From the NCBI RefSeq assembly GCF_900103505.1, contig NZ_FNIA01000027.1, positions 1-38,763 of the forward strand: DNA of 38,763 nucleotides, given 5' to 3'. Positions 2,076 through 5,187 of the stretch are shown piece after piece. Origin of the DNA: Haloarchaeobius iranensis. Lineage in GTDB: Archaea > Halobacteriota > Halobacteria > Halobacteriales > Natrialbaceae. The first letter of the stretch is position 1, and each line of letters starts with the position of its first letter. The position numbers and the translations under genes were made by a program. Below the pieces are notes generated by a model. The model did not search any database. It was not told where the DNA came from and saw only the letters and a list, made by a program, of their open reading frames with translations.

Positions 2076-2149
2076 TCCGCCCTCCCCGATTTGAACGGGG
2101 GGCAAGTCGATCTACAGTCGACTGCTCTACCAGTCTGAGCTAAGGGCGG
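2076..2149 (-). tRNA. tRNA-Tyr (anticodon GTA)
   Basis: A complete 74-nt cloverleaf. The acceptor stem is CCGCCCT/AGGGCGG with discriminator A, the D arm is present, the anticodon stem GTCGA/TCGAC holds the loop CTGTAGA (anticodon GTA), the variable loop has 5 nt, and the T stem is CCCCG/CGGGG. The first pair is C1-G72, the identity element peculiar to archaeal and eukaryal tRNA-Tyr. CCA is not encoded. I see no intron in the anticodon loop. The 3' end faces the provirus-like genes at 1-1975, the usual arrangement when an element integrates into a tRNA 3' end. Confidence 0.96.
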
Positions 2150-2184: not shown

Positions 2185-2244
2185 GGTTATCATTCGCGGT
2201 CCTGACGGGGTGTAGTACGACCGGTGTCAGACGCGGCAGATAGA

Positions 2245-2252
2245 TTAAAATA
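2245..2252 (+). promoter_or_regulatory. TATA-like box of cdrL
   Basis: TTAAAATA lies about 36 bases before the cdrL ATG (2285), predicting a short leader of roughly 10 bases. It is an AT-rich island in an otherwise GC-rich stretch. Confidence 0.5.
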
Positions 2253-2284: not shown

Positions 2285-2797
2285 ATGAGTAAGATTACCG
2301 TGCGTGCGGACGACGAGTTGGTCGAGCGCCTGGAGGCGCGCGAGGAGTCGAAGAGCCAGCTCGTTCGGGAGGCGCTCCGTGCGTACCTCGACGACGAGCT
2401 CGCGGAGCCGTCGGGCGGGTCGTCGGACGGTCAGAACGACACGCTGGACGGGTTCCTTGCCGACCGGGTGACGGAGCTCGTGGACGAACGCGTCGCGTAT
2501 CACATGCGCACGCATCAGCAGGACGTAAACGTGAACCTCCAGTTCGAAGGAGCGACGCCGGAGCGTGCGTCGGTGTCTGACGAACCGACGGCACAACCGG
2601 AGACGGGGGACGTCGACCGGAGCTGCGGACAGTGCGGTGAGACGCTCGACGGCGACCACGTGTACTGTCCGAACTGCGGCGAGAAGGCCTCGCGGCGGGC
2701 CTTCTGTGACTGTGGCGACGAGATCCGTTCGGACTGGGGGTTCTGTCCGAGCTGCGGGCGTCGGACGCCGGCGGCGGACGTGTTGGACTCCGCGTAG
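2285..2797 (+). CDS. cdrL: CdrL-type ribbon-helix-helix regulator with zinc ribbons
   Basis: A 170-residue protein. Residues 1-45 (start MSKITVRADDELVERLEARE, then a helix QLVREALRAYLDDEL) form a ribbon-helix-helix DNA-binding domain. A charged linker (45-115) follows. The C-terminus carries two zinc-ribbon-like pairs: CGQCGE/CPNCGE and CDCGDE/CPSCGR (about residues 117-160). This layout, directly upstream of cdrS and ftsZ2, matches the cell-division regulator CdrL described in haloarchaea, where CdrS and CdrL control ftsZ2 and other division genes. The gene has its own TATA box, and a separate promoter follows its stop, so cdrS can be transcribed independently. The assignment rests on domain order and synteny, since RHH sequences themselves are not very distinctive. 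Confidence 0.85.
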   Translation: MSKITVRADDELVERLEAREESKSQLVREALRAYLDDELAEPSGGSSDGQNDTLDGFLADRVTELVDERVAYHMRTHQQDVNVNLQFEGATPERASVSDEPTAQPETGDVDRSCGQCGETLDGDHVYCPNCGEKASRRAFCDCGDEIRSDWGFCPSCGRRTPAADVLDSA

Positions 2798-2856: not shown

Positions 2857-2863
2857 TTTATTA
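2857..2863 (+). promoter_or_regulatory. TATA-like box of cdrS-ftsZ2
   Basis: TTTATTA follows a GC-rich stretch and is about 160 bases before the cdrS start. The predicted transcription start (about 2885-2890) coincides with the perfect GTAAGAC palindrome, so the cdrS-ftsZ2 transcript would have a leader of about 130 bases. Confidence 0.55.
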
Positions 2864-2883
2864 TGTATGACACTGTGCATACA
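2864..2883. promoter_or_regulatory. Inverted repeat next to the cdrS TATA box
   Basis: TGTATG and CATACA form the ends of an imperfect palindrome whose inner part (CAC-T-GTG) is also symmetric, with one unpaired base. It abuts the TATA box on its downstream side, where a bound protein would block RNA polymerase recruitment. It is a candidate operator; no binding data can be inferred from the sequence. Confidence 0.4.
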
Positions 2884-2888
2884 GTTGC

Positions 2889-3000
2889 GTAAGACGGGTG
2901 TCTTACACACTACGGATTCGGGAGAATACGGGGCTCCCGCGTACGGTTTCGGTGTGTAAGACGGAACGCGTGCGAAAGAATCCCACGCGGGACGTCTTAC
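2889..3000. promoter_or_regulatory. Cluster of four GTAAGAC boxes upstream of cdrS
   Basis: A perfect palindrome GTAAGAC-GGGT-GTCTTAC (2889-2906) is followed by GTAAGAC at 2956-2962 and its complement GTCTTAC at 2994-3000. Extended half-sites agree on roughly GTGTAAGACGG. They fill the leader between the TATA box and the cdrS start. Because the neighbouring genes encode RHH proteins, which bind short inverted or direct repeats as dimers and tetramers, these are the best candidates for CdrL or CdrS operators (inference). Confidence 0.55.
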
Positions 3001-3019: not shown

Positions 3020-3196
3020 ATGGAGCGTGTGACACTGCGAATACCGAAGCAGCAGATCGAGGAAGTTGAACAGATGGTCGAGACGGGCGAGTACCCGAAC
3101 CGGAGCGAGGCGATCCGGTCGGCAGTCCGTGAGATGCTCAACGAGCAGAACGACCGCTCGAACGAGAAATCCCAGCGCACCTGGGCAAAGGTCTAA
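3020..3196 (+). CDS. cdrS: CdrS ribbon-helix-helix cell-division regulator
   Basis: A 58-residue protein, essentially one ribbon-helix-helix domain: the strand [12 protein letters not shown] (1-12), then the helices [13 protein letters not shown] (13-25) and [14 protein letters not shown] (27-40), with a charged tail. It lies 2 bases upstream of ftsZ2, so the two are co-transcribed and probably translationally linked. Haloarchaeal CdrS is a transcription factor that activates ftsZ2 and other division genes; disrupting its regulation gives elongated or enlarged cells (literature on Halobacterium and Haloferax). The length and position fit exactly. The multiple GTAAGAC boxes in front of it suggest regulation by itself or by CdrL. 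Confidence 0.9.
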
Positions 3197-3198
3197 CG

Positions 3199-4446
3199 AT
3201 GCAGGATATCGTCCAAGAAGCCCTCGAACACGAGGAACGAGAGCAGAAGCAGCAGGCCGACACCACGGGTGACGAGTTCGGCGATCCGCGCATCGTCATC
3301 GTCGGCTGCGGTGGCGCCGGCAACAACACCGTCAACCGACTGTACAACATCGGCGTCGACGGTGCCGACACCGTCGCCATCAACACCGACAAGCAGCACC
3401 TCAAGATGATAGAGGCCGACACGAAGATCCTGGTCGGCAAGTCCCTCACAAACGGGCTCGGCGCGGGCGGCGACCCCTCGATGGGCGAGCGCGCGACCGA
3501 GATGGCCCAGGGGACCATCAAGGAGGTGCTCGGCGACGCGGACCTCGTGTTCGTGACCGCCGGCATGGGTGGCGGGACCGGTACCGGTGCCGCCCCGGTC
3601 GTCTCCAGCATCGCGAAGGAGCAGGGCGCAATCGTCGTCGGCATGGTGTCGACGCCGTTCAACGTCGAGCGCGCCCGCACGGTCAAGGCCGAGGAAGGTC
3701 TGGAGAAGCTCCGCGAGGAGGCCGACTCCATCATCGTGCTGGACAACAACCGGCTGCTCGACTACGTCCCGAACCTGCCCATCGGCAAGGCGTTCTCGGT
3801 CATGGACCAGATCATCGCCGAGACGGTCAAGGGCATCTCCGAGACCATCACCCAACCGAGTCTGATCAACCTGGACTACGCCGACATGACGTCCATCATG
3901 AACCAGGGTGGCGTCGCGGTGATGCTCGTCGGCGAGACACAGGACAAGAACAAGACGCGAGAGGTGGTGAACGACGCGATGAACCACCCGCTGCTGGACG
4001 TGGACTACCGTGGTGCATCCGGTGGACTCGTCCACATCACGGGTGGCCCGGACCTCACGCTGAAGGAGGCCGAGGGCATCGCGAACAACATCACCGAACG
4101 GCTGGAGGCCAGCGCGAACGTCATCTGGGGCGCACGCATCCAGGAGAACTACAAGGGCAAGGTCCGCGTCATGGCGATCATGACGGGCGTCCAGAGCGCG
4201 CAGGTGCTCGGCCCGAGCACGCAGAAGCAGGCCAACAAGTCCCGCCAGGCCATCGACGGCGTCGACGAGGCTGAGTTCGAAGCCCAGCCCGGCGGTCAGC
4301 CGGTCCAGAACAGCGGCGGCGGCCAGTCCGTCAACGGCGGCGGCCAGTCCGTCAACGGTGGCGGCGACTCGAACTCCGGCAGCACCTGGGGCGACGGCGG
4401 CCAGGACGAGATCGAGCAGAACAACGGACTCGACGTCATCCGCTGA
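3199..4446 (+). CDS. ftsZ2: Cell division protein FtsZ2 (tubulin homologue)
   Basis: A 415-residue GTPase. The N-terminal extension [13 protein letters not shown] is typical of haloarchaeal FtsZ2. The nucleotide-binding domain includes [14 protein letters not shown] near residues 35-48 and the tubulin signature GGGTGTG near 123-129. The synergy-loop catalytic region follows, with LINLDYADM near 223-231. After the globular domain (to about residue 345) comes a disordered Gly/Gln/Ser/Asn linker containing a short tandem repeat, then the conserved tail GLDVIR. FtsZ2 acts with FtsZ1 and SepF in haloarchaeal division, FtsZ2 mainly in constriction. The tail sequence, synteny with cdrS/cdrL and nearby ncsA argue for FtsZ2 rather than FtsZ1 or a CetZ. 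Confidence 0.97.
4315..4356 (+). repeat. Tandem 21-base repeat in the ftsZ2 linker
   Basis: Two perfect 21-base units (4315-4335 and 4336-4356) each encode GGGQSVN and are followed by a degenerate third unit (GGGDSN). They lie in the disordered linker before the conserved FtsZ2 tail, where length variation is tolerated. Confidence 0.8.
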
Positions 4447-5043: not shown

Positions 5044-5187
5044 GGTCGCCGTTCCGTGGCGCGTCCCAAATCGGTTTCGGGGTGCGTGTCTTACGCGTGC
5101 GGCGGCTGCCGTGAGAGCCCCCGTGGCGTATTCCGGCACGGAAGGCGGTCTGAAAACTATAAGCGGGTGCCCCGAAGACGCTCGAAC

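Follow-up and report, generated by a model that had tools for sequence, protein, structure and literature searches.

The cdrL-cdrS-ftsZ2 locus and its GTAAGAC boxes

The window analyzed here, meaning the whole 38,763-nucleotide stretch of contig NZ_FNIA01000027.1 of Haloarchaeobius iranensis, carries cdrL, cdrS and ftsZ2 on the same strand (Table 1). Haloarchaeobius sp. FL176 has a CdrS protein identical to the one encoded here. TATA elements are predicted ahead of both cdrL and cdrS-ftsZ2, and the purine-rich GGGGAAT just before the cdrS start codon is a possible ribosome site. A tRNA-Tyr gene (2076-2149, minus strand) lies immediately upstream of cdrL. The minus-strand ORFs to its left (1-1984) may belong to an integrated element, and one of them resembles a DNA methyltransferase by eye, with no match in Pfam.

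Four exact copies of the heptamer GTAAGAC, two in each orientation, lie between 2889 and 3000, as the initial annotation had reported, in a 137-bp region for which shuffling predicts ~0.0075 copies (2.13 per 38.8 kb). A fifth copy, at 5088-5094, stands alone, upstream of a minus-strand ORF that matches nothing in Pfam, and is consistent with chance. Boxes 1 and 2 form the dyad GTAAGAC-N4-GTCTTAC over the predicted transcription start. It had been described as a perfect palindrome; its 7-bp inverted arms are indeed perfect, but the GGGT spacer is asymmetric. Similarly, the palindrome said to touch the TATA box does exist as TGTATG-N8-CATACA but is not conserved beyond loci L004 and L005.

Table 1. 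Genes, boxes and predicted elements of the cdrL-cdrS-ftsZ2 locus (window positions)
Feature	Position	Strand	Basis or remark
Putative CdrS-type operator in the cdrL promoter, GTACGAC-CGGT-GTCAGAC	2215-2232	+	11-bp spacing; direct reading
Predicted cdrL TATA element, TTAAAATA	2244-2251	+	sequence inspection
cdrL	2285-2797	+	RHH_1 and double zinc ribbon; Pfam PF01402, PF12773
Predicted cdrS-ftsZ2 TATA element	2857-2864	+	starts 32 bp ahead of box 1; 32-35 bp spacing in most of 80 loci
TATA-adjacent imperfect dyad, TGTATGAC-ACTG-TGCATACA	2863-2882		confined to Haloarchaeobius/Halorubellus
Predicted RNA three-way junction	2889-3000	+	MFE -51.2 kcal/mol, z -3.18; covariation
Box 1, GTAAGAC	2889-2895	+	candidate operator half; 5' strand of predicted RNA helix P1
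Box 2 (GTCTTAC on +)	2900-2906	-	candidate operator half; 5' strand of predicted helix P2
Box 3, GTAAGAC	2956-2962	+	3' strand of predicted P2, partner of box 2
Box 4 (GTCTTAC on +)	2994-3000	-	3' strand of predicted P1, partner of box 1
P1 of predicted junction	2889-2896/2993-3000	+	box 1 with box 4
P2 of predicted junction	2899-2911/2951-2963 and inner stem	+	box 2 with box 3
P3 of predicted junction (hairpin)	2967-2972/2984-2989	+	covariation
Purine-rich GGGGAAT just 5' of the start codon	3006-3012	+	conserved in alignment A1
cdrS	3020-3196	+	58-aa RHH protein; Pfam PF01402
ftsZ2	3199-4446	+	Pfam PF00091, PF12327

Conservation of the array in haloarchaea

The GTAAGAC dyad at cdrS is present in essentially every haloarchaeon read. 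A genome census found it with an N4-5 spacer in 275 of 292 genomes, 274 of them with a single copy, and the reversed control gave 0 matches. In the 16 readable genomes without this pattern, the dyad at that position is an N2, N3, N6 or one-off variant, and the dyad coincided with cdrS in all 22 palindrome-positive genomes compared. One genome (G239) holds a second copy in an A+T-rich stretch of another contig, away from cdrS, which we take as chance. The boxes had been expected in close relatives and they are there, with exact copies of box 1 in 118 of 119 haloarchaeal cdrS loci, of boxes 2 and 4 in 112 each and of box 3 in 77.

Eighty named haloarchaeal loci share a common layout. Most of them have the dyad 32-35 bp downstream of the beginning of the TATA element, a spacing that fits a predicted transcription start before box 1. 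Ahead of the ATG, the third box lies at ~45-65 nt and the fourth at ~20-30 nt, with GGGGAA following. Upstream of the TATA element, 80 of 119 loci have an exact box (0.5% by chance), in either orientation; the Haloarchaeobius iranensis window is without it. Of the array, basal lineages (L086 and L099) have just this upstream box and the dyad over the predicted start, without boxes 3 and 4.

The start-site dyad as a candidate operator for CdrL

Boxes 1 and 2, often joined by the box upstream of the TATA element, look like a candidate DNA operator, most likely for CdrL. The genomic pattern agrees with this assignment, as there is one dyad per genome and cdrL, located by tblastn, adjoins cdrS in 117 of 119 haloarchaeal loci; it does so in none of the 16 non-haloarchaeal loci examined. 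ChIP-seq of CdrL in Hbt. salinarum gave the cdrS-ftsZ2 upstream region as the only reproducible site (PMC7439475), in agreement with one dyad per genome. The comparison with published CdrL peaks suggested by the initial annotation leads to the same region as the dyad, although the peaks were called in 200-bp bins, with individual boxes below their resolution. This site resembles the array in its promoter, its neighboring regulator gene and its single occurrence per genome; the main text of PMC7439475 gives no motif or box, and the box, the dyad layout and the RNA role are proposed here. Genome G018, taken as Hbt. salinarum on account of a pNRC200 segment at 100% identity, has the array (L085) with box 1 changed to GTGAGAC. 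Across loci, the dyad spacer ranges from 2 to 6 bp, more variation than a single rigid dimer pair would suggest.

CdrL does not accompany the box everywhere. It was not found in G001, G007 and G093 by a profile search that detects CdrL in genomes of the same family (G010 and G220), and all three keep the array and the predicted fold despite its absence. CdrL thus cannot be the whole explanation, and the array has a CdrL-independent role, probably as RNA. The genomes that have lost CdrL are small haloarchaeal ones (2.1-2.2 Mb; L117 and L122, the loci of G093 and G007, and also G001), and CdrS stays in them together with the leader array.

CdrS and the sister box GTCNGAC

The initial annotation had offered CdrL or CdrS as binders of the array. 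Of the two, CdrS is the less likely, as its reported targets ftsZ1 and dacZ carry GTCNGAC and not GTAAGAC. From promoter sequences, CdrS appears to use this sister box in pairs 11 bp apart, with putative sites in the promoters of ftsZ1, dacZ and cdrL and, where relatives have no cdrL, in that of cdrS. The letters of the box were re-derived here by footprinting of promoters and were not taken from Fig. 4C of PMC8406309. In 20-21 haloarchaea, exact GTCAGAC occurs in 16 of 21 ftsZ1 promoters and 9 of 20 dacZ promoters (~0.5 expected) and GTAAGAC in none of either; two GTCNGAC heptamers at 11-bp spacing are typical. As only 9 of 20 dacZ promoters have the box, the motif rests mainly on ftsZ1. The genome of Haloarchaeobius iranensis has only two exact dyads of the GTCNGAC type, one of them preceding ftsZ1. 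In cdrL promoters GTCAGAC was found in 69 of 116 cases against 2.3 expected.

While ftsZ1 and dacZ are among the CdrS ChIP-seq targets of Hfx. volcanii, the cdrS promoter is absent from that list (PMC8406309 Table 1); the cdrL promoter is not among the reported sites either (PMC8406309). The CdrS motif of Hfx. volcanii (PMC8406309) is akin to GTAAGAC in being a related heptamer that occurs in 11-bp pairs, upstream of ftsZ1 and dacZ. However, the GTCNGAC-N4-GTCNGAC dyad sits upstream of the TATA element, whereas GTAAGAC in the cdrS promoter sits over the predicted start site.

The relationship between the two boxes may be explained by their history. Sixteen loci of the same phylum outside the haloarchaea, all without an adjoining cdrL, have 32 exact GTCNGAC in their cdrS promoters where 0.3 would be expected; of 100 pair distances, 82 fall on a multiple of 11 bp. 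This suggests that, in the lineage gaining CdrL, an ancestral CdrS-type array probably turned into GTAAGAC, and did so only at the cdrS promoter. The ribbon residues are R-V-T-L-R in 119 of 119 haloarchaeal CdrS proteins and K-I/V-T-F/V-R in CdrL. We take these to be the equivalents of the Arc contact residues, and the difference fits a small shift in the recognized box.

The operators of the MetJ/Arc/CopG/NikR class consist of short repeated, locally palindromic boxes, and these regulators share the RHH fold with CdrS and CdrL. The array departs from them in its one-turn (11-bp) spacing, in GTAAGAC being asymmetric where GTCNGAC, of which it is a variant, is palindromic, and in the predicted folding of the transcribed operator as RNA.

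Elsewhere in the Haloarchaeobius iranensis genome, a one-mismatch dyad, GGCAGAC-TCGC-GTCAGAC (L171, C53:9382-9399), precedes an Orc1/Cdc6-type gene (Pfam), a hint that CdrS and replication initiation may be connected; chance would account for about one-third of such one-mismatch sites.

A predicted three-way junction in the leader RNA

Because the boxes are mutually complementary, pairing between them is expected in any case, and the variable positions next to them are the informative ones. At the neighbors of boxes 1 and 4 and of boxes 2 and 3, native combinations pair more often than swapped ones; for the rival pairing, the flanks of boxes 3 and 4 gave no consistent excess of native over swapped. 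Compensatory double changes counted on the protein tree reached 28 in the P2 arms against 0-9 for slid partners and 7 in the P1 extension against 0-2. The covariation score of alignment A1 was 0.203, compared with at most 0.123 for slid versions, and 0 of 500 shuffles reached it. Shuffles of phylogenetically related sequences can give inflated covariation, and for this reason slid controls and a count on the tree were added. In P3, six of six pairs change on both sides (alignment A1); a register one base off was discarded, having 32.1% of cells paired against 67.5% in the final one. The core pairs of P1 are invariant and therefore speak neither for nor against this helix.

Folding energies point in the same direction. 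The median fold z was -3.74 over 119 leaders, and the junction was lower in energy than the rival hairpins in 76 of 80. These hairpins, box 1 with box 2 and box 3 with box 4, were rejected for that reason and for their lack of consistent flank covariation. RNAalifold, unaided, chooses the pairing of box 1 with box 4, and GTCTTGC variants of box 4 retain their pair with box 1 through G.U. A covariance model, R1, found one place in each haloarchaeal genome tested, CdrL-less ones included, and none in the basal families f5 and f11 or in four non-haloarchaeal genomes. As R1 was built with the P3 register one base off, its searches depend mostly on P1, P2 and the boxes.

Boxes 3 and 4 are thus better explained as RNA, judging from these patterns. 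The initial annotation had seen them as cooperating protein sites in an array bound over more than 100 bp. This is not supported: they behave as RNA partners of boxes 2 and 1, and the distance from box 1 to box 4 takes 27 values between 71 and 123 bp with no helical phase, on which ground cooperative helical phasing of all four boxes was rejected.

Like autoregulatory leaders and riboswitches, the cdrS leader has a predicted, covariation-supported multi-helix junction immediately before the start codon. It differs from known ones in that an Rfam search gave no family at the gathering score (one sub-threshold match is ascribed to chance). The invariant columns of alignment A1 are the boxes and the start region, and no invariant unpaired core was seen among them. 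The cdrS gene of Hfx. volcanii carries a 5' UTR. Since 72% of the coding transcripts of this organism are leaderless, and structured leaders are considered not typical of haloarchaea (PMC4983044), a conserved structured leader would be unusual.

A proposed dual role for the array

Conservation, uniqueness and pairing with compensatory change together favor, with fair though incomplete confidence, a model where the array does both jobs, as a DNA operator, most likely of CdrL, and as a transcribed three-way-junction RNA. One short sequence would then probably control the division genes at two levels. We infer the identity of the binder and the effects of binding and folding. At the DNA level, an RHH protein, most likely CdrL, would sit on boxes 1 and 2 over the start site, joined in most relatives by one more box or dyad immediately upstream of the TATA element, and occupancy of this putative operator would block or modulate initiation of cdrS-ftsZ2 transcription. 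At the RNA level, the first ~112 nt of the mRNA would form the junction, boxes 3 and 4 complementing boxes 2 and 1. The closing helix P1 would bring the 5' end together with the stretch immediately ahead of the ribosome site and so probably sets 5'-end stability, CdrS translation or both; the fold may protect the mRNA or determine how CdrS is translated. For its part, CdrS probably acts on cdrL, ftsZ1 and dacZ through GTCNGAC, and a loop from CdrS to cdrL and back to cdrS-ftsZ2 is possible. DNA recognition would maintain boxes 1 and 2, and complementarity to these would maintain boxes 3 and 4; basal lineages keep only the DNA part.

Could a single level be sufficient? If all four boxes were CdrL or CdrS sites cooperating over the leader, RNA pairing would be a mere by-product of inverted repeats. 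Such an operator would account for one heptamer in all four boxes, for the conserved box upstream of the TATA element in either orientation and for the basal lineages with this box and the dyad. However, DNA recognition does not predict that the variable arms beside boxes 2/3 and 1/4 covary, the spacing between boxes 1 and 4 lacks a helical phase and the GTCTTGC variants of box 4 preserve a pair through G.U, and we regard this explanation as distinctly improbable. A little less probable still is the converse, that the boxes serve only as strands of a structured leader acting on stability or translation and are not read as DNA by any protein. The covariation and the retention of the element in CdrL-less genomes (z -4.5 and -4.25) agree with it, but the conserved box upstream of the TATA element is outside the transcript, box 1 is invariant in sequence itself, beyond what complementarity requires, and the CdrL ChIP peak falls in this region (PMC7439475).

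A third alternative concerns the binder only and is compatible with the RNA part: CdrS rather than CdrL might occupy the GTAAGAC dyad and regulate its own gene. The survival of the array after CdrL loss would fit, as would the ancestral GTCNGAC arrays, through which CdrS probably already binds the cdrS promoter in relatives without cdrL. This is rather unlikely, as CdrS targets carry GTCNGAC, never GTAAGAC, and the cdrS promoter is missing from the Hfx. volcanii CdrS list (PMC8406309).

The dual role also admits a more speculative version, which we put forward as doubtful but somewhat better placed than any of these alternatives. The RHH operator would itself be the strand of a riboregulator, boxes 3 and 4 having evolved as its complements; GTA-A-GAC, one half of it CdrS-like, might be read by a CdrS-CdrL heterodimer, so that regulator ratio and fold would together time division.

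The presence of CdrL at this region was already known from ChIP. What is added here are exact candidate sites for CdrL and CdrS, the proposed feedback loop and a class-wide predicted structured leader RNA in a group for which such leaders are considered rare, all of which bears on how archaea time cell division through cdrS-ftsZ2. The GTAAGAC box and the leader structure were not found in the open-licence literature searched. Ribo-seq analysis suggests post-transcriptional control of the cdrS-ftsZ2 operon in Hbt. salinarum (PMC8303175).

Outside the haloarchaea, the cdrS leader of one locus (L136) has an 18-bp perfect hairpin ~15-55 bp before cdrS. Its ends are a GTCTGAC box and a GTCAGA box; as the hairpin ends on operator boxes, RNA pairing of such boxes may predate the haloarchaea.
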